A stretch of DNA of 34,492 nucleotides from Dehalococcoidia bacterium (GTDB lineage: Bacteria; Chloroflexota; Dehalococcoidia; Dehalococcoidales; BS750m-G39), in the NCBI GenBank assembly GCA_030608005.1, contig JAUWIX010000014.1, forward strand, positions 1 to 34,492. The letters run 5' to 3'. The notes under the pieces were generated by a model. It made no database searches. It was not told the origin of the DNA and saw nothing but the letters and a program-made list of their open reading frames with translations. How positions within the stretch are numbered: position 1 is the stretch's first letter; each line of letters opens with the position of its first letter. Below are positions 6,413 to 23,204 of this stretch, piece by piece. The position numbers were made by a program, and so were the translations under genes.

Positions 6413-7660
6413 ATGAAAACAAAAACAATTGCCTTTCTACTTCTAGCTGTGCTACTAACCCTTTGTACCACCCCGGTCTACGCTCAAGGGATTCCCCCAC
6501 TGCCACATGCCTTCCACGGCACAGTGGAGGTAAATGGTAGCCCGGCGCCGGTGGAAACTGAGGTGGAGGCAAGGGGGGAGGGGGTTCAGACAGATGTTAA
6601 CAACAACCCTATGGTAACCGCTGTTGAAGGTAGCTATGGTAGCTCAAATCCACTGGAGCCAAAGCTTATTGTCCAGGGGGATATAGTGGAGGGAGCCACC
6701 TTAACCTTCTATGTAAATGGTGTTTCTACCGGGCAGACTGCAGAGTGGCACAGTGGTGAGGTAACAGAATTAAATCTGACAGCAACTATAGAAGGTCCAC
6801 CGCCAGGGACAACGGATGTATCAGGTATTATCAATAGCGCTGGGGTATTTACTGAGGCAGTCATTGCTGAGTCTTCTGATAGCTTATGTCGGTTGACAAT
6901 TGATAAGGATACTGTCGGCCTAACCAAGGATGGTGAGCCGCTATCTGAGATAAAGATGACCAGAATGGGAGCACCACCCGCCCTACCCGCTGGTGCCCAT
7001 ATTATTGGGGCGGTTTATAACTTCAAGCCTGACGGGGCTGTTTTCAATCCGGCAGCAACTCTGGAGTATACCTATGACTCCTCTAAGATACCCGAGGGTG
7101 TAGCTGAAAAGGAGCTGGTCTTGGCTTGGTGGGATGCTGGAGCAGATATGTGGGTGGAGCTAGAGTCTACAGTTGACCCTGAAGCCAATACCATAACTGC
7201 TCCTGTCAGCCACTTTACTGCTCTTGCTGCCCTGGCTTATGAGCCGCCTGAGCCAGCCACTTTTAGCCTAAGTTCTCTTATTATATCACCTAGCGAGGTT
7301 ACTCCTGGCGAAAGCGTAACTATCAGTGCCCAGGTAGCCAACACCGGCGAGGAGGCTGGCAACTATAAATTAACGCTGAAGATAGATGGTGTAGTGGAAG
7401 CAAGTAAAGAGGTAACTGTTGACGCTGGTGCCAGCCAGAAGGTAATCTTTACCACAGCGAAGGATTTGCCTGGTAGCTATTCAGTAGATATTAATGGACT
7501 TAGTGGCACATTTGTAGTTATGGGAGGGGCACCATCCCCACCATCCCCACCACCAGCACCAGCCAACCCTGTCAACTGGCATCTCATCTGGGGAGTAATA
7601 GGTGGGGTGATTGTGATGGGGTTAATTATTTTCTTGCTAGCTAGAAGAAAGGCATACTAA
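6413..7660 (+). CDS. Membrane-anchored CARDB surface protein
   Basis: The protein is 415 residues long. The start is well fixed by AAAGGAGG seven bases before the ATG. It has a signal peptide (MKTKTIAFLLLAVLL, cut after VYAQ). The first domain (PLPHAFHG..., about 28-130) closely matches the protein at 1399. The middle part (about 130-290) contains a beta-rich stretch ending in an ...APVSHFT motif, reminiscent of ZU5-like segments in other surface proteins. A CARDB-like domain follows (about 293-385), then a Pro/Ser linker (SPPSPPP) and the anchor VNWHLIWGVIGGV with a hydrophobic span and RRK. Location: membrane-anchored, domains outside. It follows the large exoprotein by 99 bp, which carries several Shine-Dalgarno-like tracts and no convincing terminator, so the genes may be cotranscribed. 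The function is unknown. Confidence 0.86.
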   Translation: MKTKTIAFLLLAVLLTLCTTPVYAQGIPPLPHAFHGTVEVNGSPAPVETEVEARGEGVQTDVNNNPMVTAVEGSYGSSNPLEPKLIVQGDIVEGATLTFYVNGVSTGQTAEWHSGEVTELNLTATIEGPPPGTTDVSGIINSAGVFTEAVIAESSDSLCRLTIDKDTVGLTKDGEPLSEIKMTRMGAPPALPAGAHIIGAVYNFKPDGAVFNPAATLEYTYDSSKIPEGVAEKELVLAWWDAGADMWVELESTVDPEANTITAPVSHFTALAALAYEPPEPATFSLSSLIISPSEVTPGESVTISAQVANTGEEAGNYKLTLKIDGVVEASKEVTVDAGASQKVIFTTAKDLPGSYSVDINGLSGTFVVMGGAPSPPSPPPAPANPVNWHLIWGVIGGVIVMGLIIFLLARRKAY

Positions 7661-7776: not shown

Positions 7777-8529
7777 ATGGATAGGCACTTAATCGGTAAA
7801 CTAATTTTATCGGCTGCTTTTTTAGCTGTCCTTTTAATGACTGCGTGTCAACAAGCACCTCCTTTGCCGCCCCCTCCCGTCAAAGCGACCATCGGAGACA
7901 TAAGGGGAGTCCCGACAGCCTATGAGGGAAAGGTGGTTACTATTGAAGGGAAGTATCAGGGGTGGAAAGGAGGCTTTGGCAGTCCGCCAGTAACCCGCAG
8001 CGACTGGCTGGTGGAGGATGCTACTGGTTGGCTCTATGTTACTGGCAAACCGGCTGGTCTCGATCCCTTGGACGATGTGGGGTGCCCAATAAAGGTTACC
8101 GGAGTTATTAGGATAACCAAGGATGGCGAGCCGTATTTATATGCTCAGGAGATAGAGATAAAAGCAAAGAAAGCCAGCGCCTTACTTCTTCTTCAGATAG
8201 ATTTGAGGGAGAAGCAGCTCGCCACTCCCACACCAGAGAGGTTGGAGCAGATGAAGGCAATGGGGATGAGGACAGAAAACCTTAGCATGCAGAGGATATT
8301 CATCCACCTTGCCCAAGAGCTTACAGCATGGCAAATAGATGAGCTAGAGGCGATGGGCATTACCCCCTATCCCGATTCGTGGATACCGGTTGCGGGTGGG
8401 CATGCCGCCGGATTCATCGTGGCTGATATGCCCATAGATAAGCTTGATGAACTGGCGGGCAAGGATTATGTAATGCGGCTGGATACCGCAGAGCAGGTGC
8501 TTGAGCCCCAGACAGAACAACTACCGTAA
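7777..8529 (+). CDS. Lipoprotein with OB-fold-like and protease-propeptide-like domains
   Basis: The protein is 250 residues long. The N-terminus has a short basic start, a hydrophobic stretch and LLMTACQQ, a plausible lipobox (Cys about residue 24), so it is probably lipid-anchored outside the membrane. Residues about 37-130 (TIGDIRG...YEGKVVTIEGKY...VTGVIRITKDGEPYLYAQEIEI) read like an OB-fold domain. Residues about 140-245 match the N-terminal pro-region of the adjacent S8 protease very closely. At the DNA level, 8262-8387 and 8977-9102 differ at only six positions by eye. Subtilase propeptides are chaperones and tight inhibitors of their enzymes, so this protein may inhibit or fold the neighbouring protease in trans; that role is inferred. 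The ATG follows AAAAGGTA, a modest ribosome site. The 116 bp upstream show no clear promoter. Confidence 0.78.
   Translation: MDRHLIGKLILSAAFLAVLLMTACQQAPPLPPPPVKATIGDIRGVPTAYEGKVVTIEGKYQGWKGGFGSPPVTRSDWLVEDATGWLYVTGKPAGLDPLDDVGCPIKVTGVIRITKDGEPYLYAQEIEIKAKKASALLLLQIDLREKQLATPTPERLEQMKAMGMRTENLSMQRIFIHLAQELTAWQIDELEAMGITPYPDSWIPVAGGHAAGFIVADMPIDKLDELAGKDYVMRLDTAEQVLEPQTEQLP
8262..8387 (+). repeat. Direct repeat copy A (propeptide-like coding region)
   Basis: This 126-bp segment recurs at 8977-9102 in the next gene (offset 715), with about six mismatches by eye. Weaker similarity continues to the end of both propeptide-like domains. Confidence 0.9.
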
Positions 8530-8683: not shown

Positions 8684-11600
8684 ATGGGAAATAAGTACTA
8701 TAACCAAGGGTTAGAGTTATTCAAGGAGGTAAGCGTGAACAAAACAGCAAAAATTATAGGCACAATTTTCATCTTGCTATTACTTATCTTCAGCAGTATG
8801 CCTGGCGTCCAAGCAAGTTCATCTCAATCATCCGGAAGTGATAGCCAGGCAATTTCACCTCAAGCATCTGAGCCTGAGGCAAAAATTAGTGCCCTGCTCT
8901 CCTTACAAGTAGGTGCCAAGGTGCGCTGCCAGCAAGCCCCGCCAACAGTAGATGAGTTGAACATGATGAAGCAAACGGGGATGAGGACAGAAAACCTTGA
9001 CATGCAGAGGACATTCATCCACCTTGCCCAAGAGCTTACAGCATGGCAAATAGATGAGCTAGAGACGATGGGCATCACCCCCTATTCCGATTCGTGGATA
9101 CCCCCTGTAGGCGACTACCCCACCGGATTTATAGTAGCTGATATGCCTGTAGATAAGCTCGATGAACTGGCAGGCAAAGACTATGTAGTTCGGCTTGATA
9201 CCGCAGAGCAGGTGCTTGAGCCCCAGAATGACCTGGCAGCAATAAAGATAAACGCTGATGATGTATGGACCTCGGGCTATGATGGAACCGGGGTCAGGAT
9301 AGCAGTGTTGGATTCTGGACTGGACACCGCTCACCCTGATATCCCAGCGCCGGTGGCTAGTAAAGACTATTCAAACTGGCCAGTACTAGACAATACCATT
9401 GCCAATGCCGTGACTGGTCATGGCACCCATGTTACCGGCTCGGCTGTGGGACAGGGAACACAATCAGCAGGAGCCACCCACCAGTATAAAGGTATGGCAC
9501 CAGATGCTGACCTTGTATTTCTCAAGATTGGTAAGGATAACACAGGCAGTGCTTCACTTGATGCCATGACCAATGCCATTAAGGCAGCGGTAGATACCTA
9601 TGACGCTGACATCATAACTATGAGTTATGGCGGCTGGGGAGATTACCATGATGGGACCCGGCAGACTTCCCAAGCGGTGGACTATGCCTTTGGTAAAGGA
9701 GCTGTGGTCTTTATCTCGGCGGGAAATGACGCTAACGATGCCCAGCATTACTCAGGCACAGTGAACGCCTATAGCAGCACTGGCTTCATTCAGGTCAATG
9801 TTACCGGCTCCAATGGGGGCAATGCCGGACTTGGGTTTAACCTGGTTTGGTATGATGGTCTGGCAAATAGCAATGACCTGGTTCTGGAATACTACGCATC
9901 TGACCAAACGCCGTTGGCTGATACTTGGGCAAGTGCCCAGGAGGAGAGCTGGAAGGGCACAGAGCATGAGCTTTCCGGTTATGGTCCCGACGCTGGTTGG
10001 TACTATTATCTGCCGGCAGGAGCCCTAACCTACTACCTGAAGGTAACCAACAATTCAGATAATAACCAGTTCTTCCACATCTACTTCGAAGGTATTGCCA
10101 GTAGCGGCGCTTCGGTGAAATTTCAGAACCCCGACCCCTATTACACCATTTCTTCACCGGCAGATGCGGAGAAAGCCATAGCCGTTGGCGCTTATACTAC
10201 CAGAAAGAACTGGACTAATTATTCAGGGACTGCCTATTGGTATATCAACCCTGAACAAACAGTAGACACCATAACCTCCTTTAGTAGCCGCGGACCGAGG
10301 GTGGATAGCGGAGCGCCGCAGAAGCCAAATATCGTTGCCCCGGGCAGTGCCATCATCTCAGTTCGGGATACAGATATCTACACTTTGGGTAATGCTGACT
10401 ATGACCCGTACATTGTTGACAATGATGGCTTGAACCTGGATGGCTCAGGTCCGGCAGATTATTATGCGATGCAGGGAACAAGCATGGCTTGCCCCATTGC
10501 CGCCGGAGCAACTGCACTACTGCTTGAGGCCAAGCCTGACTTAAAAAGGCATCCAGCCGCAGTTAGAAACCTGCTCCAGTCAACAGCTACTTCCGTGGAA
10601 GCCAACGATAATATAGACGGATACGGTCTGCTAGATATCCAGGCTGCCATAGCTGCCAATGCCTCTGAGCTAGAGGCAGATTGGCTGTTTATGGTTTACC
10701 TTGATGCCGATAATAACCTGGAAAGTGCCGGCATAGATGATTTGAACGAGATGGAGGTAGCTGGCTCTACGGATGATGTCAAAATTGTGGTTGAGATGGA
10801 CCGTGCCGAGCGCGACTGGGACGATGACACCAGCAACGGAAACTGGACCGGCGCCAAGAGGTTCTATGTAACCCAGGATACTGACGCCGCCATCATTAAC
10901 TCTCCGGTGATTGCTGACCTGGGAGAGGTAAATATGGGTGACCCGGCGACACTGCAGAGCTTCATTGAGTGGGCTATCGCTAACTACCCAGCTCAGCATT
11001 ATGCCCTGGTATTGTGGGACCATGGCAGCGGTTGGAGAGAGAGAAATGCCACCACGACTATGAAATCCATCTGCTCTGATGACCAGGCTGGTGACGAGTT
11101 AACCATGACCGAGCTGAGGAGCGCACTGAATGCAGCTAACGCCACCACCGGAGAAACACTGGATATCATTGGCTTTGATGCCTGTCTGATGGAGATGGTG
11201 GAGGTAGCCTATCAGGTCATGGGGAGTGCTAGCCGTCCCCTGGTTGACATAGCCGTAGGCTCGGAGGAAACCGAACCCGGTGATGGCTGGGATTATGCAC
11301 ATACCCTGACCGCCCTAACCGGCAATCCAGCGATGACACCTACAGAACTGGCTACCCAAATAGTCAATGACTACATAAGCTCCTATAGTTCAACGCTGGG
11401 CATAACTCAGTCGGCGGCGAATCTGGGTCTGGTCGATGAACTGGCAACTGCCATTGACAGCTTGGCTCAAGCCATGACCAGTGCCACCGGTGATTGGAGT
11501 GCGATTAAGACAGCCAGAGGTCAGGCGCAAGAATACTACTATGACTACTATATTGACCTCTACCACTTTGCCCAGCTGGTAAATCAGGATACCAGCATCA

Positions 11601-14104
11601 GTCAAGCAGTTAGAGATGCCGCCGGTTCAGTTATGACGGCGGTAAATAATGCCGTTATTGCCGAGGGGCACACCTCATCGGTAGCCAATTCCCACGGGCT
11701 GTCCATCTACTACCCTGAGACTGTGACGGATTACTTCTCCGACTACGAGACCAGTCTCTTGTTCACCACCGATACCCAGTGGGATGAATTTCTTAGTGCT
11801 ATACTCTCCTCTCCGACTGTGCCTGACATCACGGTTTCTCCAACCAGCTTCGATGTGACGCTGTCTCCAAACACCGCACAGGATTATACCCTGACCATTG
11901 GCAACGATGGTGGTGCCGACCTTACCTATGATATCAGCGACCAGGAGACACCAATACTAACACCGAGCAGCCTGGCAACGGAGAAGGAACAGATGCTCTC
12001 CCGGAGTCCGGACTTGGTTTTGACCAATTCCGGGTATGATATGAGTATTGCGGTTAGTGACGCCAGTTCCATTGGCAGATATACCGAAGCCACCGCTGAT
12101 GAAAAGCTGTTGCTTTATGGCTATCCGTATGCCGGCACCTCCTATATGACGGTTCAGTTAGATGGAAGCGATTACTATCAGGACTACACTATGGATACAT
12201 ATGTAACTCAGACGCCAGCCATCGATGGCGACAGTATCGTTGCGCAGTGGTCCTTGCCGACAAATGTAGAGGTCTCGCAGAGACTGACCTTGCAGTCAAA
12301 TACCACTCAATATCATGTTACCGTGACCAATAACGATGCTACCAGCCACGAGGTGAAGATACGCTTTCTCCTCGATACCATGCTGGCGTACAATGATGGT
12401 GCTCCATTTATCGTCCCCGGAGTGGGGAACGTCACCACAGAGCAGGAACACACTAATCCAGTATTTGACTACTGGAAGGCTACCGATGACCTGGTCAATC
12501 CAACGCTGACCTCTAACTGCACATTTGACACTAGCAACAAGCCTTACAAGGTGCAATTTGCTTACTGGCCGGATATCTATAGTGTGCCCTTTGACTATGC
12601 CATAATCTCAGGGCAGACAATAACCTGGGATACCGCAGTGGGCATGTATTGGAACCTGGGCACGCTCTCACCCAGTGAAGCCAAGAATGTAATCTTCTAT
12701 TACGGGACTACTGGCGCAATAATCGGTACTCCCGAGGTAAGCATAGTGACACTGTTTACCGACACGGATAGCTACATACCCGAGGAAGATGTGACCATCT
12801 ACGTGGATGTGGGCAATGGTGGTGATGTGGCGCTGGTCAACGGCAATGTCACCGTCAGTGTGCAGAACCCCGAAGGGGTATCGGTATTTGAGGACAGCTC
12901 TGCGATAACAGTAGAAGCAGGAGCAGTGGTTAGCCGGAACTTCACCTATAGTTTGTCCGCAGACGCAGTTGTGGGTCAATACACTGTTACTGCTAACGTA
13001 TATGATGCTGATGAGAGCTTGCTCGATGAGGCAACAGCAACCTTCACGGTAAGTAGTACCGATTGCTCCTGGCTGGACGAAAATCCCAAGTCAGGCACAG
13101 TGGCGGCGGGCAGTTCGGACTCTATAACGGTAACCATAAATACCACCGGTCTTGCCGAGGGCAATTACAGCGCTGAGATAGTCATCGCCAGTAATGACCC
13201 AGATGAAGCCTCTACCACAGTGCCGGTAACCCTGCAGGTTAGTCCCGCCGAGGCGCCGACAGTAGCCTCAGTTAGTCCCAACTCTGGGGAGCAAGGGGCG
13301 ACACTGGAGGTCACCATTAGCGGCACTAACTTTACCGGAGCCACTGCGGTAAGTTTCGGTGACGGGATAACGGTCAACTCCTTTACCGTGGTTAGCGCAA
13401 CGCAGATAACGGCCAACATCTCTATCAGTGCTACTGCCACACTGGGGCTGAGGGATGTTTCAGTTACCACTCCAGATGGAACGGGAACACTTGCTGACAG
13501 CTTTACCGTGGTAGCAGCGGGGTTGGTTACCGTTAGCATCGATGCCCCTGCTCAGGCAGCCCCCGATAGCGACTTTACCGCTGATGTCAATATCAGCGAG
13601 GTGGCGGACTTTGATTCTTGTAACTATGATGTCTCCTTTGATGCCTCAGTATTACGGCTGGATAATGTAACCTCAGGGCTAATAGGGTCAACAACAATAC
13701 CGGTTGACCTATATACCGAGATCAGCTCGGGGACATACCGGATTATTCAGAATGTTCCTGGATTAACTGGGGTAAGTGGCTCTGGATATCTGGCAGTATT
13801 GCACTTCCATGTTATTGGCTCTGGGGGCGACAGCAGCACAATAAGCCTTTCCAACGGCATGCTTGCCAATAACCTGGCTGAGGAGATATCGGCAACATGG
13901 GTCGGCGATTCAGTAGATATCACCTCAGTATTGCCAGGAGACGCCAATGGTGATGGTAATGTCAACGCCCTTGATATTACTAAAGTAGAAAGAATCATAG
14001 CCGGGCTGGATGCTGAAACTCCTGGGGCTGATGCCAATCAGGATGGCAGTGTCAATGCCCTGGATATCACCAAGATAGAGAGGATTATAGCCGGGCTGGA
14101 TTGA
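8684..14104 (+). CDS. Giant double protease: subtilisin S8 + clostripain C11, with cohesin and dockerin
   Basis: The protein has 1806 residues. An ATG (8684) and an in-frame GTG (8735, residue 18) each follow AAGGAGGT with a 4-base gap. The signal peptide begins at the GTG (VNKTAKIIG..., cut after GVQA, residue 44), so the GTG may be the working start. A propeptide spans about 65-180. The S8 domain (about 185-660) has D210 in VLDSGLD, H246 in GHGTH, N348 in SAGND and S600 in GTSMACP. The C11 domain (about 665-1043) has H780 in WDHGSGW and C834 in GFDACLM. A beta-rich region of unknown fold (1090-1350) precedes CARDB-like, BACON-like and IPT/TIG-like domains, a cohesin (about 1617-1747) and a dockerin (1753-1806). 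The dockerin has two DxNxDGxVNALDITK loops. Both catalytic sets look intact. The likely role is extracellular protein breakdown in a self-assembling surface complex. Carrying cohesin and dockerin in one chain is unusual. Confidence 0.93.
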   Translation: MGNKYYNQGLELFKEVSVNKTAKIIGTIFILLLLIFSSMPGVQASSSQSSGSDSQAISPQASEPEAKISALLSLQVGAKVRCQQAPPTVDELNMMKQTGMRTENLDMQRTFIHLAQELTAWQIDELETMGITPYSDSWIPPVGDYPTGFIVADMPVDKLDELAGKDYVVRLDTAEQVLEPQNDLAAIKINADDVWTSGYDGTGVRIAVLDSGLDTAHPDIPAPVASKDYSNWPVLDNTIANAVTGHGTHVTGSAVGQGTQSAGATHQYKGMAPDADLVFLKIGKDNTGSASLDAMTNAIKAAVDTYDADIITMSYGGWGDYHDGTRQTSQAVDYAFGKGAVVFISAGNDANDAQHYSGTVNAYSSTGFIQVNVTGSNGGNAGLGFNLVWYDGLANSNDLVLEYYASDQTPLADTWASAQEESWKGTEHELSGYGPDAGWYYYLPAGALTYYLKVTNNSDNNQFFHIYFEGIASSGASVKFQNPDPYYTISSPADAEKAIAVGAYTTRKNWTNYSGTAYWYINPEQTVDTITSFSSRGPRVDSGAPQKPNIVAPGSAIISVRDTDIYTLGNADYDPYIVDNDGLNLDGSGPADYYAMQGTSMACPIAAGATALLLEAKPDLKRHPAAVRNLLQSTATSVEANDNIDGYGLLDIQAAIAANASELEADWLFMVYLDADNNLESAGIDDLNEMEVAGSTDDVKIVVEMDRAERDWDDDTSNGNWTGAKRFYVTQDTDAAIINSPVIADLGEVNMGDPATLQSFIEWAIANYPAQHYALVLWDHGSGWRERNATTTMKSICSDDQAGDELTMTELRSALNAANATTGETLDIIGFDACLMEMVEVAYQVMGSASRPLVDIAVGSEETEPGDGWDYAHTLTALTGNPAMTPTELATQIVNDYISSYSSTLGITQSAANLGLVDELATAIDSLAQAMTSATGDWSAIKTARGQAQEYYYDYYIDLYHFAQLVNQDTSISQAVRDAAGSVMTAVNNAVIAEGHTSSVANSHGLSIYYPETVTDYFSDYETSLLFTTDTQWDEFLSAILSSPTVPDITVSPTSFDVTLSPNTAQDYTLTIGNDGGADLTYDISDQETPILTPSSLATEKEQMLSRSPDLVLTNSGYDMSIAVSDASSIGRYTEATADEKLLLYGYPYAGTSYMTVQLDGSDYYQDYTMDTYVTQTPAIDGDSIVAQWSLPTNVEVSQRLTLQSNTTQYHVTVTNNDATSHEVKIRFLLDTMLAYNDGAPFIVPGVGNVTTEQEHTNPVFDYWKATDDLVNPTLTSNCTFDTSNKPYKVQFAYWPDIYSVPFDYAIISGQTITWDTAVGMYWNLGTLSPSEAKNVIFYYGTTGAIIGTPEVSIVTLFTDTDSYIPEEDVTIYVDVGNGGDVALVNGNVTVSVQNPEGVSVFEDSSAITVEAGAVVSRNFTYSLSADAVVGQYTVTANVYDADESLLDEATATFTVSSTDCSWLDENPKSGTVAAGSSDSITVTINTTGLAEGNYSAEIVIASNDPDEASTTVPVTLQVSPAEAPTVASVSPNSGEQGATLEVTISGTNFTGATAVSFGDGITVNSFTVVSATQITANISISATATLGLRDVSVTTPDGTGTLADSFTVVAAGLVTVSIDAPAQAAPDSDFTADVNISEVADFDSCNYDVSFDASVLRLDNVTSGLIGSTTIPVDLYTEISSGTYRIIQNVPGLTGVSGSGYLAVLHFHVIGSGGDSSTISLSNGMLANNLAEEISATWVGDSVDITSVLPGDANGDGNVNALDITKVERIIAGLDAETPGADANQDGSVNALDITKIERIIAGLD
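8977..9102 (+). repeat. Direct repeat copy B (propeptide coding region of the protease)
   Basis: Second copy of the repeat at 8262-8387. The closeness at DNA level indicates a recent duplication or gene conversion between the lipoprotein gene and the protease gene. Confidence 0.9.
13769..13900 (+). repeat. Cohesin repeat copy A
   Basis: This 132-bp part of the protease's cohesin reappears at 14732-14863 (offset 963) with a single mismatch by eye. The rest of the cohesin (from about 13547) is also similar but more diverged. Confidence 0.9.
13940..14101 (+). other. Dockerin domain with two Ca-binding repeats
   Basis: Residues 1753-1776 and 1783-1806 are two 24-residue repeats differing at few positions (DANGDGN... 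and DANQDGS..., both followed by VNALDITK and ERIIAGLD). The D-x-N-x-D-G pattern followed by an acidic D at position 12 is the dockerin F-hand calcium loop. The DNA of the two repeats is also alike. It ends exactly at the protein C-terminus. Confidence 0.92.
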
Positions 14105-14245
14105 TTATTAAAGCAGCGGAGTTTAATGACGGTTTTACGCCTCTATTACCTTGACGGCGTTAAAGATTGGCGCTACATTAACTATTGTGGCTAAATAAGG
14201 AGGAAATGCGGTGAGCCTCTAGTATCCCAAATCTGGGAGTGTAAA
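14105..14245 (+). promoter_or_regulatory. Intergenic region with candidate promoter and two-codon ORF
   Basis: TTGACG (14151-14156), 17 bases, then TACATT (14174-14179) form a candidate promoter. An imperfect stem (TTTACGCC ... GGCGTTAAA) lies over its -35 side and could end the upstream transcript. A full AAGGAGG at about 14198-14203 is followed by ATG-CGG-TGA (14206-14214), a complete Met-Arg ORF. The true gene start at 14246 has only a weak GGGAG site. The -35/-10 surroundings resemble the protease promoter (both have TTGAC, GCGC and TATTGTRGC-like blocks). Confidence 0.5.
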
Positions 14246-15073
14246 ATGCGGAAAAGAACATTACATAGAGAAGCCTTGCTACTAACAGCAGTTATTATGC
14301 TGTTGTTCTTATTCCCTATTATAGCCCATGCCCAGATAGAGCAGGATGGAGATGCTATAGGCGAGTATTTTAGTACTTACAGCACCTACGAGACTAATGG
14401 TAACAACAATAGTGATATAGATGCCACCAGGGCAACATATTATGATGAAGGCATTATCTCATGGGCAAATATAACCTCGACGACAGAGGTTATCGCTAGC
14501 ATTGATGCTCCCGATGAGGCACGCCCCGATAGTGACTTCACGGCTAATGTCAATATCAGTGAGGTGGTGGGCTTTGATTCTTGTAACTATGATGTCTCCT
14601 TTGATGCCTCGGTGCTTCAATTGGATAATGTAACCTCAGGGCTGATAGGGTCAACAACAATACCGGTTGACCTATATACCGAGATTAGCTCGGGGACATG
14701 GAGAGTTATTCAGAATGTTCCTGGTCTATCAGGGGTAAGTGGCTCTGGCTATCTGGCAGTATTGCACTTCCATGTTATTGGCTCTGGGGGCGACAGCAGC
14801 ACAATAAGCCTTTCCAACGGCATGCTTGCCAATAACCTGGCTGAGGAGATATCGGCAACATGGACGGGGGATTCAGTGAGGATAGCAACTGCAGCATCTG
14901 AAGACGCCACCCCACCGACAGTAGGTAACTCACCACCCGAGGCTACTGCCCCCGATACGGCGGCACCACTGCCAACTGAGTCAATCAATTGGCCAGTGCT
15001 GTGGGGCGTAATAGGTGGAGTGGTTACAATAGGGGTTATTATTTTATCGCAGGCTTTACGGAGGAGGCGCTAA
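14246..15073 (+). CDS. Membrane-anchored single-cohesin protein
   Basis: The protein is 275 residues long. It has a basic start (MRKRTLHR), a hydrophobic signal segment ending HAQ (about residue 30), and a 50-residue spacer. One cohesin domain follows (about 80-215), nearly the same as the cohesin in the upstream protease. A Pro/Thr/Ala linker leads to the anchor INWPVLWGVIGGV, a hydrophobic span and a terminal RRRR. Cohesins bind dockerins, and the only dockerin in the window is on the adjacent protease, so this protein is the natural candidate for holding that protease at the cell surface. Specific pairing is an inference. The ATG at 14246 has a weak ribosome site (GGGAGTGTAAA), while a much stronger site lies 40 bases upstream in another frame. 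The gene ends opposite the convergent oxidoreductase gene. Confidence 0.87.
   Translation: MRKRTLHREALLLTAVIMLLFLFPIIAHAQIEQDGDAIGEYFSTYSTYETNGNNNSDIDATRATYYDEGIISWANITSTTEVIASIDAPDEARPDSDFTANVNISEVVGFDSCNYDVSFDASVLQLDNVTSGLIGSTTIPVDLYTEISSGTWRVIQNVPGLSGVSGSGYLAVLHFHVIGSGGDSSTISLSNGMLANNLAEEISATWTGDSVRIATAASEDATPPTVGNSPPEATAPDTAAPLPTESINWPVLWGVIGGVVTIGVIILSQALRRRR
14732..14863 (+). repeat. Cohesin repeat copy B
   Basis: Second copy of the sequence at 13769-13900, with one mismatch over 132 bp by eye. Such near identity within otherwise diverged genes points to recent duplication or gene conversion. Confidence 0.9.
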
Positions 15074-15150: not shown

Positions 15151-17655
15151 CTAGAAGAGATCCTCCAGCTCTCGATTCCCTTCGGGCATCTGACCGTATT
15201 GAGCAATGTACTGCTGCAGGAACTCGCTCTCCCGCTTGGTAAACATCGGTTCCTCTTTATACATGAAGTAGTGAGCCTTCTCATTAACCTCCAATTGCTC
15301 CTTCAGCTCCCGGTGCAAGTTCATCGCTCCCTTGATGTAAATGATGTTCTTCTCTTCATCCAGCAGTTGATAGACTCCCTCCACCTCGGGAACCTGGCTT
15401 ACGTTCTCTGAGGTGAACTCTACCCACAGCTCCTCCTTTGGTGCCAGAATAGGCTTGGAGAGGAGAAGCCTGAGGTCACATCTAAGACAACGCTTGGCTT
15501 CATCAACTGCTTCAGATTCACTAAAGCCCAGTTCCACCTCGGCAAAGCTACTATACCGCTGCTTTGCAGGCAGGCATGGCATGGGAACCCGAAACCTATC
15601 TGCGAAACCTTCCTCACGTCCTAAGTAAGGATTGGATTCTTCAACATCAACCAGCGTCTCATCAATCTCACCGTTACCACCAAGGTATCTATCAATAGAG
15701 GTAGCTGCCTGTCGCCCGGCGGCAATTGCCTCGATAACCGAGGCTGTGCCAATTACCGCATCACCTGCAGCAAAGATGCCTGCTGTACCGGTAGCCAGTG
15801 TATTCGGGGCAACCTCCAGAGTCCGTCGCTTGGTTATCCTAATGCCACTAACCCCATCAATCAGCTCAAGTTCAGGCAGTTGACCGATGGCAAAGATAAC
15901 AGTATCAGCCGGTAAAACATGCTCCGAGCCGGCAATAGACTCAACATGAAGCTTACCTTCCTTATCAAACTGAAAGGACTTCACATCAAGGCATTCCACA
16001 CCATTAACTCGTCCATTATCGCTCACAATCCTAGTAAAAGTCTGGGAACTATGGATGGTAATACCCTCTTCTTCTCCCCAGCCAATTTCTTCAGGTGCAG
16101 CCAGCATACCCTCTCTAGGCTCAAGACAGGCTATATGGACATCGCTAGCCCCTAGCCTTAGTGCAGTTCGAGCACAGTCAAAGGCAACATTACCACCGCC
16201 AAGAACTACCACTCTGCTACCTACCTTAACCTCTTTGCCCAGGTTGACATCCCTCAGGAAGGGGATATTGACCAGCACCCCATCAAGGTCAGCCCCAGGG
16301 AGAGGCAACTTCAGGCCACGGTGAGCACCGACGGCTAGCAAAACAGCGTTGTAGCCTTCTTCTAGGAGCTTAGCTACCGATTCAACCTTGGTATTTGTTT
16401 TAATCTCAATGCCAGTGCTCTTTATCTCGTCTATCTCTTTATCCAGTACCTCCTTGGATAGACGATGCTGGGGAATGCCGACTCTCATCATACCGCCAAC
16501 CACAGGTAGGGCTTCAAAAACAACCACATTGTGCCCGAGTTTAGCCAAGTAGTATGCCGCAGTTAGCCCAGCGGGACCCGAGCCAACAATAGCTACTCTC
16601 TTGCCGGTGGATGAAGCTACTACCTTCACCTTCTGCTTCCACAGCCCCGTGTCATGCTCGGCAGCAAACCGTTTAAGAGCCCTTATTGCTATCGGTTCAT
16701 TTACTTCAGCCCGTCGGCATTTCTCCTCACAAAAGTGCAGGCAGATATGCCCCAGCACTGCTGGAAACGGAACCTTCTCCCGAATTACTGCCACTGCCTC
16801 AGCAAATCTTCCTTCTTTTATCAGGCGGACATAGCGGGGGACATCTATACCTGCGGGACAAGCACTTTGGCACAGAACCTCTTCAAATAGCTCTTTATCT
16901 ACTAGCGCACCTGTCGGGCAGACCTCAACACAAGCAGTGCAGAAGCGGCAAGCAGATTCCCTAAGTGTAGGGCTGACCGTGCCTACCATGACTCGTCCCT
17001 CTTCATCAAAGACGAAGTCGATAGCCTCTACCCCCCACACCTCCCGGCAGACCCGGATGCAGCGGGTACAACCAATACACAGGTTGTAATCTCGTTCAAA
17101 TAATGGCTCATCTTTGACCACAGGTAGGTCTTTAAACACATAACGCGGGGTCTCCTTCTTAATCCCCACATACTCAACTAACCTCTGGAACTCACAGGTG
17201 CCGAACAGGGGACAGCACCTTTCCTTCTCTGGTATGTTCATGGAGCAGGGAAATCGGGCGCAGCCTTCCTTTTGAGCACAGGCCAAGCAGGCATGGGGAT
17301 GTTCAGCCAGAAGAAACATGAGCCGGTCTTGGCGGAACTGTTGAACCTCCGGTATATCAGTGCGAACTACCATCCCTTCGTCCACTTTGGTAGAGCAAGC
17401 GCGATGGAAACCTTCACTTCCCTCAATCTGCACCACGCAAAGCTGACAGCCCTCGTACTGCAGCTCGGGCCTCTTGTTCTCTAGGCGCTTGCCATCACGG
17501 TAGACAGCCTCTGCTGGTTTTAGTTGCTCTACCGGGGGAAGGTCAGGGTGGGAACAAAGGTGAGGGATATAAATGCCTGCCTCTTGGGCGGCATCCAATA
17601 TTGTCATCCCTTCGGGCACGGTAACTTCAATCTCATCAATGCTTAAAGTAACCAC
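15151..17655 (-). CDS. bzdV: BzdV-like NAD(P)H:ferredoxin oxidoreductase (Fe-S/FAD), GIY-YIG-like tail
   Basis: The protein is 834 residues from a GTG start with a weak ribosome site. The N-terminus is a [2Fe-2S] ferredoxin-like domain (Cys34, 70, 73, 87). A His/Cys cluster region as in NuoG-type subunits follows (HPHACLACAQKEGC). Two [4Fe-4S] motifs come next (CIGCTRCIRVC and CRFCTACVEVC). The rest is a GltD-like flavoprotein part with CPAGIDVPRY, an FAD site (VAIVGSGPAGL) and an NAD(P)H site (VVVLGGGNVAFDCA). In Azoarcus, BzdV is proposed to regenerate the reduced ferredoxin that feeds benzoyl-CoA reductase, and its place as last gene of this operon fits. Odd: the last 75 residues look like a degenerate GIY-YIG domain (G760-V-Y, Y773-I-K, E809, N near the end). 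The family is certain; the partner is inferred from context. Confidence 0.85.
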   Translation of the reverse strand: MVTLSIDEIEVTVPEGMTILDAAQEAGIYIPHLCSHPDLPPVEQLKPAEAVYRDGKRLENKRPELQYEGCQLCVVQIEGSEGFHRACSTKVDEGMVVRTDIPEVQQFRQDRLMFLLAEHPHACLACAQKEGCARFPCSMNIPEKERCCPLFGTCEFQRLVEYVGIKKETPRYVFKDLPVVKDEPLFERDYNLCIGCTRCIRVCREVWGVEAIDFVFDEEGRVMVGTVSPTLRESACRFCTACVEVCPTGALVDKELFEEVLCQSACPAGIDVPRYVRLIKEGRFAEAVAVIREKVPFPAVLGHICLHFCEEKCRRAEVNEPIAIRALKRFAAEHDTGLWKQKVKVVASSTGKRVAIVGSGPAGLTAAYYLAKLGHNVVVFEALPVVGGMMRVGIPQHRLSKEVLDKEIDEIKSTGIEIKTNTKVESVAKLLEEGYNAVLLAVGAHRGLKLPLPGADLDGVLVNIPFLRDVNLGKEVKVGSRVVVLGGGNVAFDCARTALRLGASDVHIACLEPREGMLAAPEEIGWGEEEGITIHSSQTFTRIVSDNGRVNGVECLDVKSFQFDKEGKLHVESIAGSEHVLPADTVIFAIGQLPELELIDGVSGIRITKRRTLEVAPNTLATGTAGIFAAGDAVIGTASVIEAIAAGRQAATSIDRYLGGNGEIDETLVDVEESNPYLGREEGFADRFRVPMPCLPAKQRYSSFAEVELGFSESEAVDEAKRCLRCDLRLLLSKPILAPKEELWVEFTSENVSQVPEVEGVYQLLDEEKNIIYIKGAMNLHRELKEQLEVNEKAHYFMYKEEPMFTKRESEFLQQYIAQYGQMPEGNRELEDLF

Positions 17656-17691
17656 AACTGTATAGCAGGTTAAAGCTTCTAATTATATGTA

Positions 17692-18003
17692 CTACCGCCC
17701 ATATAGGAGCTTCCATCCCTCTGAGTGGGATAAGGCTCCAGATTCACAGGCAGCCACACAGGGCGGGGGTTTCTCCCCATAGCCAGGTCGGCAGGGAGCG
17801 CAGGTATACCTGAGCTTCTTACGCTCCTCGCGTCTAACCTTGACCACCGGCTCCTCCCGGAAAGGGTCATATTCGTCCTCACCTACCTCAAGGACGTTCG
17901 CTGGGCAGACCTCTACGCATTTGCCGCAGCCATCACATTTATCAGTGTCAACTGCGAGGAACCAATCACCTGACCCGTCTTTGAAACCATAATGGGCTAA
18001 CAT
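17692..18003 (-). CDS. bzdM: Ferredoxin of the benzoyl-CoA reductase (BzdM-like)
   Basis: The protein is 103 residues long. The first cluster motif is CDGCGKCVEVCP near residue 23. The second set of cysteines is irregular: CAPC, then CVAAC about 15 residues on, in place of a plain second CxxCxxC motif. It probably carries two [4Fe-4S] clusters and passes low-potential electrons from the downstream oxidoreductase to the ATPase subunits of the reductase. The start ATG overlaps the upstream stop codon by one base (TAATG), which suggests coupled translation with bzdQ. A 36-bp gap separates it from bzdV. Its position after Q matches the NOPQM order known from Azoarcus. Confidence 0.82.
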   Translation of the reverse strand: MLAHYGFKDGSGDWFLAVDTDKCDGCGKCVEVCPANVLEVGEDEYDPFREEPVVKVRREERKKLRYTCAPCRPGYGEKPPPCVAACESGALSHSEGWKLLYGR

Positions 18004-18938
18004 TATGCCTTTCTTGCGCTCTTCACCCTACCCCTCTCCAGGAGAGCCCGAGCGAAGAGAGCCGCTCCTATCCCACCAGTGATCTGGGTGTCGAAGGGAA
18101 GGCCCTTGTCACGCATCTTTGCGTCATGCCAACCCAGCTCCATAGTTGTAACCCCCAATTCCTTCTCCAGCCTCTTTACCACTCCTATGTTTTTAGCTAT
18201 ACCGCCGGTGATGGCGAATTTCTCCTCGATGCCCAGGCGGTTCAGCAGCTCCGTTATTCGGTGAGCCATGGCAGCACAATAAGCAGCCATGATGTCATTC
18301 TCGGGCACCCCTTCCTGCAATAAGGCAACGACCTCGGTTTTGGCGAATACCACGCAGGTGCTGCTTATCATTGGTGGCTCTTTCTCGATCTGGAAGGAGC
18401 GGGAGCCGATATCCCAAACGGGAATCCTGATGAGGTCAGCAAACACCTCCATCCCCCGACCAGTTCCAGCAGCGCACTTATCGTTCATCATGAACTTCAG
18501 AACCTTGCCCCTGTCATCGCAGTTGATGGCCTTGCAGTCCTGACCGCCCATGTCCATCACCGTCCTTACCTCTGGCCCATACATAAAGTTAGCTCCCCTG
18601 GCATGGCAGGCAATTTCAGTTATCGTCTGCTGTGCCATAGGGACGTTCACCCTTCCATAGCCGGTCCCGATGCAATAGTCAAGGTTATCCACCGTCATGT
18701 CGCTTCCCTCTAGTGCCATGTTCATGCACTTCCAAGCGCTGTCAGGGCTATCAGAGCCGGTACGCGTGTTGCTGTAGGCATAAAGCTCGCCATCAACCAT
18801 GACCACTGCCTGCGAGCTAACCGAACCAACATCTACCCCTGCGGTAATGATCTTCCCCTTCGACCAGTCGATGTCCGGATTTACCCAAGCGGTCTCCGGC
18901 CATCTCCAGAATTCTACTTCTTTCTTGGCCTCAACCAT
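18003..18938 (-). CDS. bzdQ: Benzoyl-CoA reductase ATPase subunit (BzdQ/BcrA-like)
   Basis: The protein is 311 residues long, in the BadF/BadG/BcrA/BcrD ASKHA ATPase family. It shows a phosphate-1 loop (AGVDVGSVSSQ, about residue 33), DMGGQDCKAI (about 129), C155 in NDKCAAGTG, C195 in SSTCVVFAKTEVV, and an adenosine motif (ITGGIAKN). The two cysteines are expected to hold a [4Fe-4S] cluster between the two ATPase subunits. ATP hydrolysis drives electrons to the ring-reducing subunits. The length matches Azoarcus BzdQ (about 300) and not the longer Thauera BcrA (about 436). The ATG follows AAAAAAGGAGGA. It sits 23 bp after bzdP. A 2-hydroxyacyl-CoA dehydratase activator is the main alternative, but those systems use a single ATPase type, and here two different ATPases sit together. 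Confidence 0.87.
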   Translation of the reverse strand: MVEAKKEVEFWRWPETAWVNPDIDWSKGKIITAGVDVGSVSSQAVVMVDGELYAYSNTRTGSDSPDSAWKCMNMALEGSDMTVDNLDYCIGTGYGRVNVPMAQQTITEIACHARGANFMYGPEVRTVMDMGGQDCKAINCDDRGKVLKFMMNDKCAAGTGRGMEVFADLIRIPVWDIGSRSFQIEKEPPMISSTCVVFAKTEVVALLQEGVPENDIMAAYCAAMAHRITELLNRLGIEEKFAITGGIAKNIGVVKRLEKELGVTTMELGWHDAKMRDKGLPFDTQITGGIGAALFARALLERGRVKSARKA

Positions 18939-18961
18939 TGCTCTTTCCTCCTTTTTTATAT

Positions 18962-19792
18962 TTAAGTCTTCCCCTCTTCAACTGTCTCTTTTTCCACAAC
19001 CCTGGCTTTCACCTCTTCCTCAAGCACTCCAGCAGCGGCAGCGGCAGCAGCACCTAAGGCACCAACAAAATCTGGGGCATCCGGCACCTTCACCTCTATA
19101 CCTATGTCCCTCTTTAAAGACTCCATAAACCCGATATTCTTAGCCACCCCGCCAATCATGACTACATCATCCTCCAGCCCCACAATGCGCGCCACGGAGC
19201 CAACCCTTCCGGCTATGGCATCATGGACGGCGCGGGCAATATCATGCTTCGGCGTCTTCTGGTGAATCAGCGATACCACCTCGGACTCTCCGAAAACAGC
19301 GCACTGGGCATTCATCGGGATGGAACGCGTGGACTGAAGTGAGAGCTTCGCCATTTCCTCCACCGGCATCTCTAGTGCCCGGGCCATGGTGTCAACGAAG
19401 GTGCCAGTGCCGGCGGCACACTTCTCGTTGATGGCAAAGTCCAGAACCTTACCCTCGGGGTTAACTTTTATTGCCCGACCCTCCTCAGCCCCGACATCAA
19501 TGATGGTCCTCGCTGAGGGAATAAGCCGAATTACCCCTCTGGCATCAGCCGTAGCATCGGGGATGACACCATCGGCGAAAGTAACCCTCTGGCCGGAACT
19601 GCCGGTAGCTACCACCCGGCTAACATCTTCCCGCTTCAGCCCGGCTTGCTTGAGTGCCTCGTTATACAACTGCTCAGCCGCCTCAGCCTTCTTGATGCCG
19701 GACGGTGCCTCCGCCTTTGCCAATATGTCGCCATTCTTGGTGATAACTGCGTGTACGTTCTTACCGCCCACATCTATTCCTGCAACTATCAT
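18962..19792 (-). CDS. bzdP: Benzoyl-CoA reductase ATPase subunit (BzdP/BcrD-like)
   Basis: The protein is 276 residues long and is the second ASKHA ATPase of the same family. It shows AGIDVGGKNVHAV at the start, DVGAEEGRAIKV in place of the GGQD motif (about 99-110), C125 in NEKCAAGTG, C164 in NAQCAVFGESEVV, and VMIGGVAKN. It should pair with the neighbouring ATPase to form the electron-activating module with a shared [4Fe-4S] cluster. The ATG follows AAGGAGGA. The gap to bzdO is 23 bp. A loop rich in alanine and a charged tail (VEKETVEEGKT) close the protein. P and Q were assigned from order and sequence character, not alignment. Confidence 0.85.
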   Translation of the reverse strand: MIVAGIDVGGKNVHAVITKNGDILAKAEAPSGIKKAEAAEQLYNEALKQAGLKREDVSRVVATGSSGQRVTFADGVIPDATADARGVIRLIPSARTIIDVGAEEGRAIKVNPEGKVLDFAINEKCAAGTGTFVDTMARALEMPVEEMAKLSLQSTRSIPMNAQCAVFGESEVVSLIHQKTPKHDIARAVHDAIAGRVGSVARIVGLEDDVVMIGGVAKNIGFMESLKRDIGIEVKVPDAPDFVGALGAAAAAAAGVLEEEVKARVVEKETVEEGKT

Positions 19793-19815
19793 CTTGTCCT
19801 CCTTTCTCTGAGTCT

Positions 19816-21135
19816 TTAATCAACCACCTTCTTGAGCCCTAAGGTCTCGGTGATGAAGAGGTTAATAAATCTCTTGGTTCGAGCCTCATCAAACTCCCTC
19901 TCATCCGCCATATTCCCTTCAAAGGTCATCACCGGCATCCCCATCTTTGCCAAAGCTATCTTCATCTCCATCTGATGCTGGGCTGTCCCCTCACAACCGC
20001 GGTTAAGGTGTATTATCCCCGCATCGCACTTCCACTGCTTGGCTATCTTGGTTACCAGGTCGTTCTTGTATTCAGCTCCGTAGAATGGGGCCCACATTAG
20101 CTTCCCCTTAAGCTCGCCCTCTGTTAGCAGCCTTAGGGCATGGTCTCGGTCCTTAATGGTTATGCCCTGCTCCTCAAGAGTGGGATAAGGCACTAGCTTG
20201 CCATTCCCATTGACCTTAAACCACCCAATGAGGGAGAAGGTGTAAAGGTGGGCTACAGAGACCACGCCGTACTTCTCCAGGTAGCGATATACCCTGAGAA
20301 AGGCCCAGGGAGGCTGGCTATCACCCAGCATCCGGCATTGCTCGTCAGCTACAGCCGCAATTTGATTGGCCACCCGGTCCTTCACCTCAGGATACAGCTC
20401 ATTCTTATAGAAGTTGGCGATATCTTTGTTTGACTTTTCCAGGGTTCCCAAGACATACAAGGAGAACATCGTCTTTTCATCCAGTGGAGCCGGGATTGCC
20501 TGGTTGAGCATACATGTCTTTGCCCAGTAGCAAGAAGAAGCATAGGTATTGTAGACATTCTGAATCAGCTTCTCATCATCCAGCTTCCTGCCGGTGGTCT
20601 TCTCCAGAAAATCAATCCCATCGTAGAGCTGTTCCACTACATAGTTTATTTGTCGCTCGCCTATTTTATCGTAAGCCCCGACTCCGACATCGAAACAGAA
20701 GAAGGGAACATCGCCACCTTCTAGTTCATCGGCTACCTGAAGCCACTTAGCGTGCGAGCAGCAGATGTGGTTCTGAAAAATGAAGTCTGCCTTAGGCCAC
20801 TCACCACCAAAGGCGAATTCGTTAAGTATTATGGAACCCCAGTAGTTGCGCAGGTAGGCGCACAAATCTCGAGCACAGCCCCACTTGCCCTCGGCTGCTT
20901 CCTGATATCTCACCTGAACTTCGGGATTGGCTCCAACGCTTGCTCCGTAGGGTTCCTCGGTAAGCCCGTGCACTTCACCCTCAAGCGCCTGAGGGATAGC
21001 ATCGAAGGTCCAGGCGCCACCTTCCCAGCGGAGAGCCCCCCGGTCATGCGCCTCCTTATAGTCCTGGTAATACTTCATCCTCAGCTCTTTAGCCTTCCCC
21101 CAACAATCTAAACCCTTGGTTTTATACTTTGCCAT
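19816..21135 (-). CDS. bzdO: Benzoyl-CoA reductase substrate-side subunit (BzdO/BcrB-like)
   Basis: The protein is 439 residues, the usual length of BcrB/BzdO in the 2-hydroxyglutaryl-CoA dehydratase D-component superfamily. Conserved cysteines are visible at about 87 and 92 (GCARDLC), 125-126 (HICCSHAK) and 381 (NRGCEGT). Together with BzdN it should form the heterodimer that binds benzoyl-CoA and reduces the ring to a dienoyl-CoA. The ATG follows AAGGGGGA. The gap from bzdN is 35 bp. The true substrate could be benzoyl-CoA, a substituted benzoyl-CoA or another aryl-CoA; sequence reading alone does not separate these. Confidence 0.87.
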   Translation of the reverse strand: MAKYKTKGLDCWGKAKELRMKYYQDYKEAHDRGALRWEGGAWTFDAIPQALEGEVHGLTEEPYGASVGANPEVQVRYQEAAEGKWGCARDLCAYLRNYWGSIILNEFAFGGEWPKADFIFQNHICCSHAKWLQVADELEGGDVPFFCFDVGVGAYDKIGERQINYVVEQLYDGIDFLEKTTGRKLDDEKLIQNVYNTYASSCYWAKTCMLNQAIPAPLDEKTMFSLYVLGTLEKSNKDIANFYKNELYPEVKDRVANQIAAVADEQCRMLGDSQPPWAFLRVYRYLEKYGVVSVAHLYTFSLIGWFKVNGNGKLVPYPTLEEQGITIKDRDHALRLLTEGELKGKLMWAPFYGAEYKNDLVTKIAKQWKCDAGIIHLNRGCEGTAQHQMEMKIALAKMGMPVMTFEGNMADEREFDEARTKRFINLFITETLGLKKVVD

Positions 21136-21170
21136 CTTTCCCCCTTAATCTAACTTAATTTAAAAAGTTT

Positions 21171-22328
21171 CTAAACAAACAATTCCTCAGCCAGTATCTG
21201 CTCAATGAATGCTTCCACCCGGATGCGGAACTGCCCCACAGGAACAGTGACTTCGAATTCAAGGAAGTAACAAGGGATGTCATTACCTTCAAGATACCGC
21301 CTCAAGCTCGGGATATCAAGCTCGTGGGGGTCACAGAATTTCTGCTGAATTAGGATTGCCCCTTGAACGCTGTAGTCTCGAGCCAGTTGCAGAATATGCG
21401 GGAAGCGGACTCTGGAGCAGTCCTCCATTCCCCAGTCCTTATTAGGACAGGGCACACGGTCGCAGTAGCGGTTGGCAATAGCCTGAAGTCGGTCATTGTC
21501 CGGAATGACTTCATTCCAGAAGTACCTCGAGCCGGTGCAGTGGTCGTCAATGACGAAGGTGCCTCCTATCGATTCTACCATCTCCATAAACGGTCGGTCA
21601 TCGTTCTCACTGCCAACAATCATCAGCCGGACTCCCGGGTCTCGGTCAAGCTTCCGCTTGGGAAGTGCTTCAAGGAGCTGCTTTAATAGCTCATTATGCT
21701 CTCTCTTATCCATAAGCTGGCTTGCCCAGACCATCGTCATCGCTTCAGTACCAGTGATAGGCGGGTTATCCTCCTTACGGAATTCATAAACCTGCTTCAT
21801 CAGGCGCCGGTTGGTATTCATGATGTCTATGCCCCTGTCCAGGTCTTCGTCAGTGATAGTTTTGCCAGTCCATTCTTCCAGCGCCTTCTTGAACTCAGCC
21901 AGCTCTCCTCTTAGGAATTTCTTGGCTCTGGGGCTACGCACAGCATTGGGCATAACGAACCAGTAACTCCACGGGGTTGGTACATGGATTACCCAGGCAC
22001 CAAAGGTCTGGCGCATATGCAGGCAGGTGTTTGCTTCTATTAGTCCGTCTAGGTAGCCGTTATACTTTCCCTTCAGCGCTTGGTTCAGGCAGTCGCGACA
22101 GAAAGGACACCACATGTCAAATATGTGCGGTGTGGCCAAGCTGGGAGGTTCATGGCCACCTAGTATCCGAACCGGAAGGATATCCGCCGCATATAGAACT
22201 TCCTCCGGGACATAGGTGCACATGCCACCAACTACCTTCCCCCCGGTTCTCCGCTTCCAGTCCTTGGCATATTCGTGCCGCAATTCCCAGACGTCGTTAA
22301 ACTGTTTCAGTATTTCTTGCGCTTCCAT
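21171..22328 (-). CDS. bzdN: Benzoyl-CoA reductase subunit (BzdN/BcrC-like)
   Basis: The protein is 385 residues, the typical length of BcrC/BzdN. It shows GGMCTYVPEEVLYAADILP (Cys37), WCPFCRDCLNQ (Cys74, 77, 80) and DDHCTGSRYFW, patterns of the BcrC/HgdB superfamily. It pairs with BzdO as the ring-reducing heterodimer with Fe-S clusters. It is the second gene of the operon, 15 bp after the paaX-like regulator stop, with an excellent AGGAGGAG site. A 2-hydroxyacyl-CoA dehydratase is the alternative, but the complete N-O-P-Q-M-V order favours an ATP-dependent aryl-CoA reductase. Confidence 0.88.
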   Translation of the reverse strand: MEAQEILKQFNDVWELRHEYAKDWKRRTGGKVVGGMCTYVPEEVLYAADILPVRILGGHEPPSLATPHIFDMWCPFCRDCLNQALKGKYNGYLDGLIEANTCLHMRQTFGAWVIHVPTPWSYWFVMPNAVRSPRAKKFLRGELAEFKKALEEWTGKTITDEDLDRGIDIMNTNRRLMKQVYEFRKEDNPPITGTEAMTMVWASQLMDKREHNELLKQLLEALPKRKLDRDPGVRLMIVGSENDDRPFMEMVESIGGTFVIDDHCTGSRYFWNEVIPDNDRLQAIANRYCDRVPCPNKDWGMEDCSRVRFPHILQLARDYSVQGAILIQQKFCDPHELDIPSLRRYLEGNDIPCYFLEFEVTVPVGQFRIRVEAFIEQILAEELFV

Positions 22329-22343
22329 TCTCTCCTCCTATTA

Positions 22344-23204
22344 TTAATTGTTAGAAATTCCTGAGTTAGTCAATGGTAACCCCTGGTACTCCCTCATTAC
22401 CGAATCAAAATACTGGTTAGCCCTATCGGCAAGCAGGTCGTGGTATTGATGGAATAAGGCTGCAGCTTGGGGGCGCAACCAATTCTGGGGCAGAAGCTCC
22501 TCAGGCAAATCAGGGTCAAAGAAGGGCAACCTTCGGTATTCGTGAATTAGACCAAATCTTTCCACAAAGCACTCGCTGGGTTCGATGAGCTTACCAGCTT
22601 GGAGACGCTTTAGGTGGTCTCGTAACTTGGGACGGTATTTGGCTAGGAAATTGGCGTACTTTTCATGTATTGTACTTAGGTCCCAGCACCGGGACACTAT
22701 CTTTTTAGGGTCGGTGAAACCCTGGTGTTTGGCATGGAAGATTTGGACGTGCTCCTTAATTTCAAGCCTTTCCACTAAATCCTCAACTTCTTTAGCTAGG
22801 TCGTAGGGTGAGATCCAGGTAGCCTCGCTTAGGGCACCGTATCCCATCCAACCTAGCTCAAGCCGTAGCCTATCCCTGGCCTGCCGTCTTTGTTCAGGAA
22901 TGGAGTAGGTAACGACGTTCCAGGTACCGTCCCAATGAGTGTTCTTTCGCTGGAAGATACGCTGTGCCCCTTTGGTCAGTAAACTGCGGCCATCCTCCGT
23001 TAGCGAATAGTAACTCCTCCTGCCAACCCGTCTTACTTTCAATAGGTGTGCACGGCACATCCTCGATACCGCTGACCTTATGGCCTGTTCCGACAGACCC
23101 AAATTGTTGAGCAGCTTTACCAGACTACCAATCCCGATTTCCCCCCCGGGCTGGAGGGCATAATCACCATAAAGCGTAAGCAGAGCTGGTTGTGGATGAA
23201 GCAT
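22344..23204 (-). CDS. PaaX-family transcriptional regulator
   Basis: The protein is 286 residues long. The N-terminal winged-helix region (LTLYGDYAL...SEQAIRSAVSRMCRAHLL, about 8-60) and the central TWNVVTYSIPEQRR...LGWMGYGALSEATWISPYD stretch are characteristic of the PaaX repressor family, which binds phenylacetyl-CoA in E. coli. Here it is the first gene of a benzoyl-CoA reductase operon, so it probably senses an aryl-CoA and represses its own operon. The known Azoarcus regulator of bzd genes is BzdR, a different family, so this pairing is unusual. The ATG at 23204 follows a weak GAGG. The operon promoter and a palindrome lie just upstream. Confidence 0.85.
   Translation of the reverse strand: MLHPQPALLTLYGDYALQPGGEIGIGSLVKLLNNLGLSEQAIRSAVSRMCRAHLLKVRRVGRRSYYSLTEDGRSLLTKGAQRIFQRKNTHWDGTWNVVTYSIPEQRRQARDRLRLELGWMGYGALSEATWISPYDLAKEVEDLVERLEIKEHVQIFHAKHQGFTDPKKIVSRCWDLSTIHEKYANFLAKYRPKLRDHLKRLQAGKLIEPSECFVERFGLIHEYRRLPFFDPDLPEELLPQNWLRPQAAALFHQYHDLLADRANQYFDSVMREYQGLPLTNSGISNN

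Follow-up and report, generated by a model that had tools for sequence, protein, structure and literature searches.

The locus described here raises the question of what a cohesin and a dockerin might do on a protease. The window, a 34,492-nucleotide stretch of DNA from a Dehalococcoidia bacterium (contig JAUWIX010000014.1 of assembly GCA_030608005.1), encodes a protein in which two peptidase domains share one chain with both halves of this binding pair, and the following gene encodes a second cohesin with a membrane anchor. Our analysis suggests that the double protease is clipped to the cell surface by a type of connector familiar above all from cellulose-degrading machines. We consider it probable that the locus specifies a noncellulosomal cohesin-dockerin surface-display system, whose client here is a secreted double protease accompanied by a tethered prodomain.

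The argument draws on the following features:

7777..8529, +, lipoprotein that includes a free protease prodomain (73% identity to protease aa 66-183; lipobox LLMTAC; OB-like domain)
8170..8517, +, free prodomain copy inside the lipoprotein (profile; AF2 secondary structure b-a-b-a-b, aa 171-237)
8684..14104, +, secreted double protease, 1806 aa, ending in a cohesin and a dockerin (Pfam; full-length orthologue in G005, 78% identity)
8882..9232, +, S8 protease prodomain, aa 67-183 (profile match between signal peptide and S8 domain)
9242..10651, +, Peptidase S8 domain, aa 187-656 (Pfam; D210/H246/N348/S600)
10670..11818, +, Peptidase C11 (clostripain) domain, aa 663-1045 (Pfam; H780/C834)
13229..13519, +, TIG/IPT Ig-like module, aa 1516-1612 (Pfam and profile)
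13526..13903, +, cohesin 1, in the protease, aa 1615-1740 (PF00963, E 2.6e-11; AF2 fold similar to 2xdh, TMt 0.83)
13925..14101, +, type I dockerin with two calcium loops, aa 1748-1806 (PF00404, E 3.1e-12, 47.2 bits)
14246..15073, +, membrane-anchored cohesin protein, 275 aa (PF00963; terminal hydrophobic segments; orthologous anchors in G005, G008, G010 and G015)
14489..14866, +, cohesin 2, in the anchor protein (PF00963; 90% identical to cohesin 1)
14987..15070, +, C-terminal anchor tail NWPVLWGVIGGVVTIGVIILSQALRRRR (same tail type in 1351-2502, in 6413-7660 and in the sister anchors)

A double protease carrying both halves of a binding pair

The protease is built, from its N terminus, of a signal peptide, a prodomain, the S8 and C11 domains, Ig-like and TIG modules, the cohesin and the dockerin. 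A Pfam scan of the whole protein returned Peptidase_S8 (3.5e-41), Peptidase_C11 (6.5e-62) and Dockerin_1 (1.2e-10); cohesin 1 is matched by PF00963 at 13526-13888 in the genome search, yet is absent from this whole-protein list. The union of two proteases, a cohesin and a C-terminal dockerin in one protein, which an earlier note on this DNA had described, is thus borne out by profiles, and the catalytic residues that it had seen are present. The S8 domain has the Asp/His/Ser residues of a subtilase (D210, H246 and S600) together with the oxyanion residue N348, and the C11 His/Cys dyad (H780 and C834) aligns with that of the clostripain crystal structure 9cip. Apart from the window's own genome, a phylum-wide sample of 400 genomes showed no S8-C11 fusion; the protein from the sister genome G005 that shares 78% identity came from a search of closer relatives.

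The dockerin that ends the protease is the only one found in the source genome by a PF00404 search. Its loops, DANGDGNVNALD and DANQDGSVNALD, form the duplicated EF-hand-like arrangement. The earlier note named failure of these loops to bind calcium as a refutation; in sequence, every canonical calcium-ligand position is kept in both. The two 24-residue repeats are identical at 21/24 positions and differ only at positions 4, 7 and 16. In type I dockerins of clostridia, such internal symmetry is associated with a dual mode of binding, and one structure among the Foldseek matches of the modelled cohesins, 2vn5, has a title that refers to dual binding. Positions 10-11 and 17-18 (AL and ER), at which type I dockerins are known to make contact, agree between the two repeats and vary little from client to client, the pattern expected for one shared cohesin specificity.

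An AF2 model of a read-through chain (cohesin 1, dockerin, linker, cohesin 2) gave pLDDT values mostly >90 for the cohesins and about 50 for the dockerin. The best single-domain Foldseek match of the modelled cohesins by E-value is 2xdh, a noncellulosomal cohesin from A. fulgidus (TMt 0.83), and 2vo8 from C. perfringens matches at TMt 0.86. Cohesins 1 and 2 are 90% identical in DNA and protein alike, and share a stretch of ~110 bases in their 3′ part that is identical in DNA. Therefore, the pair has been duplicated or converted recently. A tree places the window's two cohesins together (92/90), near those of G015, whereas the anchor cohesins of G005, G008 and G010 form one clade (100/99).

A second cohesin on a membrane anchor

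The double protease has no C-terminal TM tail, whereas its neighbours in the window have one. The next gene, 14246-15073, indeed encodes the membrane-anchored protein with almost the same cohesin that the earlier note had described: it has a signal peptide, a Pfam cohesin match (3e-10) and hydrophobic segments at both ends (aa 5-33 and 247-272). The tail type is common to the proteins encoded at 1351-2502, 6413-7660 and 14246-15073, and consists of a Pro-rich linker, a TM segment of the NWPxxWGxIGG type and a basic end. It is likely a clade-wide surface anchor, and since three window proteins carry it, the anchor cohesin would be using a tail common in its clade. Both this shared tail type and the prodomain copy in 7777-8529 had been overlooked in the earlier note. 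The stretch of the anchor protein ahead of its cohesin has no match in related loci, so that no relic was found there of the genes that separate protease and anchor in a sister genome (see below).

A genome-wide profile search of the 1.12 Mb source assembly (87% complete) places all of its cohesins (2), dockerins (1) and subtilases (1) inside the window, and found no other in the remaining assembly. The search for further dockerin-bearing proteins that had been proposed as a check accordingly returned the protease alone, and because the genome is only 87% complete, other dockerin clients may be missing from it. In agreement with the earlier note, a Pfam scan of 25 window ORFs detects no glycoside hydrolase. 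Promoter and terminator scans of the window gave nothing useful above shuffled expectation. The minus strand at 15151-23204 encodes a set of proteins reminiscent of a class I benzoyl-CoA reductase or a 2-hydroxyacyl-CoA dehydratase, comprising two BcrAD/BadFG ATPases, two HGD-D subunits, a large Fe-S/FAD oxidoreductase and a PaaX-like regulator.

From this arrangement we infer that the S8-C11 protease, itself lacking a membrane anchor, is exported, and that its calcium-dependent type I dockerin would engage the cohesin of the TM-anchored protein encoded next to it, which would hold proteolysis at the cell surface. The protease's own cohesin could then offer a further docking site for another dockerin protein; in this genome, that protein could only be another copy of the protease, added head to tail.

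A predicted membrane-tethered copy of the prodomain

The lipoprotein encoded directly upstream is predicted to hold a further copy of the S8 prodomain at the membrane, where it would most likely help the protease to fold, or inhibit it, in trans until release or docking. Among the 156 genomes of the same order that were surveyed, the prodomain is present in five (5/156) and occurs exactly twice in each, once free and once in the protease. The free copies have an invariant lipobox Cys, and in 5/5 genomes, from four genera, their gene immediately precedes that of the protease. The proteases linked to the prodomain in G106 and G112 have neither cohesin nor dockerin by profiles (that of G116 is cut by a contig end), which suggests that the tethered prodomain is older and that the cohesin-dockerin modules were added later.

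Neither the Pfam I9 profile nor any sequence in the PDB matched the lipoprotein, and a Foldseek search with its model returned OB-fold proteins, from the N-terminal half, with no I9 or propeptide fold among the matches listed. Since it matches neither the I9 profile nor a solved propeptide, we do not class its prodomain as an I9 member. The lipoprotein is probably a membrane-tethered inhibitor or chaperone of the protease, judging from its homology to the protease's own prodomain. We regard it as rather unlikely that the extra prodomain has no function, or that it serves as a receptor for the propeptide once this is released; the additional OB-like domain found in the lipoproteins of two genomes speaks for such a reading, but the retention of lipobox and prodomain immediately upstream of the protease across all five genomes and four genera argues against it.

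Stand-alone inhibitors of the subtilisin propeptide type, such as fungal POIA1, are prodomain-like proteins encoded apart from the protease. The lipoprotein differs from these in being membrane-tethered, in its one-to-one association with a protease gene and in lacking a match to Pfam I9.

The same modules in related genomes

A longer version of the locus is found in G005, where a single gene run encodes a prodomain lipoprotein, an S8-C11-cohesin-dockerin protein, a Big_5/DUF5122 cohesin-dockerin protein, a PQQ-propeller cohesin-dockerin protein and a cohesin-TM anchor. The last two or three members of this run recur in G008, G010 and G015, of which the first two are cut by contig ends; no prodomain match was obtained in G015. 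The window is without the two middle genes. In all four sister genomes the run closes with the cohesin-TM anchor.

The earlier note had inferred a scaffold dedicated to proteolysis, and the idea of a purely proteolytic system is not supported, given the presence of the same cohesin-dockerin pair on PQQ-propeller and Big_5/DUF5122 clients in these sister operons. Because beta-propeller and Ig proteins carry the pair in sister genomes, it is better viewed as a general mode of surface display that has a protease as its client here.

Across the 156 genomes, cohesins occur in 28 and dockerins in 17, with both in 15 (Fisher p=1.4e-11), although this co-occurrence is inflated by tandem one-chain proteins and the related genomes are not independent. 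No dockerin was detected in 13 of the 28 genomes with cohesins, and so cohesins may have other roles too. Dockerin-only proteins are found in G034, G013 and G144 and multi-cohesin proteins in G013, G050 and G005; G013 also encodes a separate S8-dockerin protein without a cohesin. Elsewhere in the order, the clients include RHS, LRR, NosD and RCC1 proteins. One of these, encoded at L040:9554-17194 (G013:C171), is a 2547-aa RHS-repeat protein that ends in PKD, cohesin and dockerin modules. Proteins of >3300 aa with several cohesins are encoded at L163:2458-12441 (G050:C17) and on G013:C183 (L068), the former with many TIG repeats, and both are scaffoldin-like.

Alternative arrangements of the pair

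The close spacing of the two modules in the protease (a gap of only about 7 residues) bears on how they could be used. Every tandem client has its cohesin directly adjoining its dockerin through a conserved short linker, GDSVxIT, and AF2 did not place the dockerin (pLDDT about 50). These observations would fit a closed form in which the dockerin binds the cohesin of its own chain or stays masked, there is no assembly in trans, and the anchor cohesin binds something else. However, we judge this improbable, given that cohesin-only anchors are conserved beside the clients and that other proteins of the order have a dockerin alone or several cohesins, for which binding in trans is the easiest explanation. 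Slightly less probable still is that the cohesin serves as a generic Ig-like surface spacer spread by duplication, with the dockerin a passive remnant and tethering achieved otherwise. Cohesins do duplicate and convert freely, as the identical ~110 bases in the window pair illustrate, and 13 genomes have cohesins without dockerins; but the calcium loops and contact residues of the dockerins are kept across genera, and the presence of a dockerin strongly predicts that of cohesins (15/17 genomes).

If docking on a membrane-anchored cohesin, the reading we prefer, is accepted, it may extend further. Copies could chain head to tail, as the earlier note had inferred, and so form a linear fibre of protease off the anchor. 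Both halves of the pair are present in every tandem client, and the three tandem clients of the G005 run have the same contact residues in the first repeat. We hold this extension as no better than tentative, because the short linker may block binding on both sides at once, and a single dockerin may instead be the target of several competing cohesins. A more elaborate version seems doubtful to us, namely a 'daisy-chain' non-cellulolytic surface system in which no scaffoldin is needed, since every client brings both modules with it, and in which the tethered prodomain keeps the double-protease client inactive until it is docked away.

For docking on the anchor itself, which the earlier note had inferred, the support is indirect: the anchor ends the gene run in five genomes, cohesins and dockerins co-occur, the protease is TM-less, and a homologous archaeal cohesin-dockerin pair binds (PMC9705933).

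Relation to known systems

Formation of a cellulosome is not indicated. Only two single cohesins, and no scaffoldin with several, were found in the genome (87% complete), and the sole dockerin is on the protease, with no dockerin-bearing glycoside hydrolase and no glycoside hydrolase of any kind in the window. As for surface anchoring, a TM-anchored single cohesin is present, not a scaffoldin.

In Archaeoglobus fulgidus, the two genes AF2375 and AF2376 adjoin each other, with AF2375 itself holding both modules. The Coh76 and Doc75 modules of this archaeon, an organism without cellulosomes and the source of the best single-domain fold match by E-value (2xdh), bind with high affinity, and this binding has been used and verified (PMC9705933). 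Unlike the present locus, the system is archaeal and has no S8-C11 double protease, and no tethered prodomain is mentioned for it. Candidatus Stygibacter (Cloacimonadota) has a dockerin-bearing S8/S53 peptidase and a C25 cysteine peptidase, proposed to act on extracellular polypeptides, but its cellulosome-like complex includes a large multi-cohesin scaffoldin with CBMs and dockerin-bearing GHs (PMC8542988). Here, by comparison, two peptidases share one chain with their own cohesin, the anchor is a TM protein with a single cohesin, the genome shows no scaffoldin and the window no GH. The S8 protease dDoc_0689 of Clostridium thermocellum has a double dockerin with a preference for the cell-bound cohesin ScaD (review PMC12484212); it differs in belonging to a true cellulosome, in its double dockerin and in that no cohesin or C11 domain is mentioned. 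ANME, which are organisms of anoxic sediments, have noncellulosomal cohesin and dockerin surface proteins, but their common dockerin proteins are binding components of ABC transporters, and ANME-2c has S-layer proteins with dockerins (PMC9012536).

Given these precedents, attaching a protease through a cohesin is nothing new in kind. As far as the literature searched shows, there is no description of a locus that joins two peptidases bearing a cohesin and a dockerin, a tail-anchored single cohesin and a tethered prodomain; nor did that literature yield any paper on this clade's cohesins or dockerins.

The compact set of three genes (tethered prodomain, double protease and anchored cohesin) provides a noncellulosomal pair with an enzyme client and a predicted location. 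Therefore, small purified domains would allow the role of cohesin-dockerin pairs beyond cellulosomes to be tested. If the proposed arrangement is true, it would give uncultured sediment bacteria related to Dehalococcoidales a route for keeping protein degradation at the cell surface.
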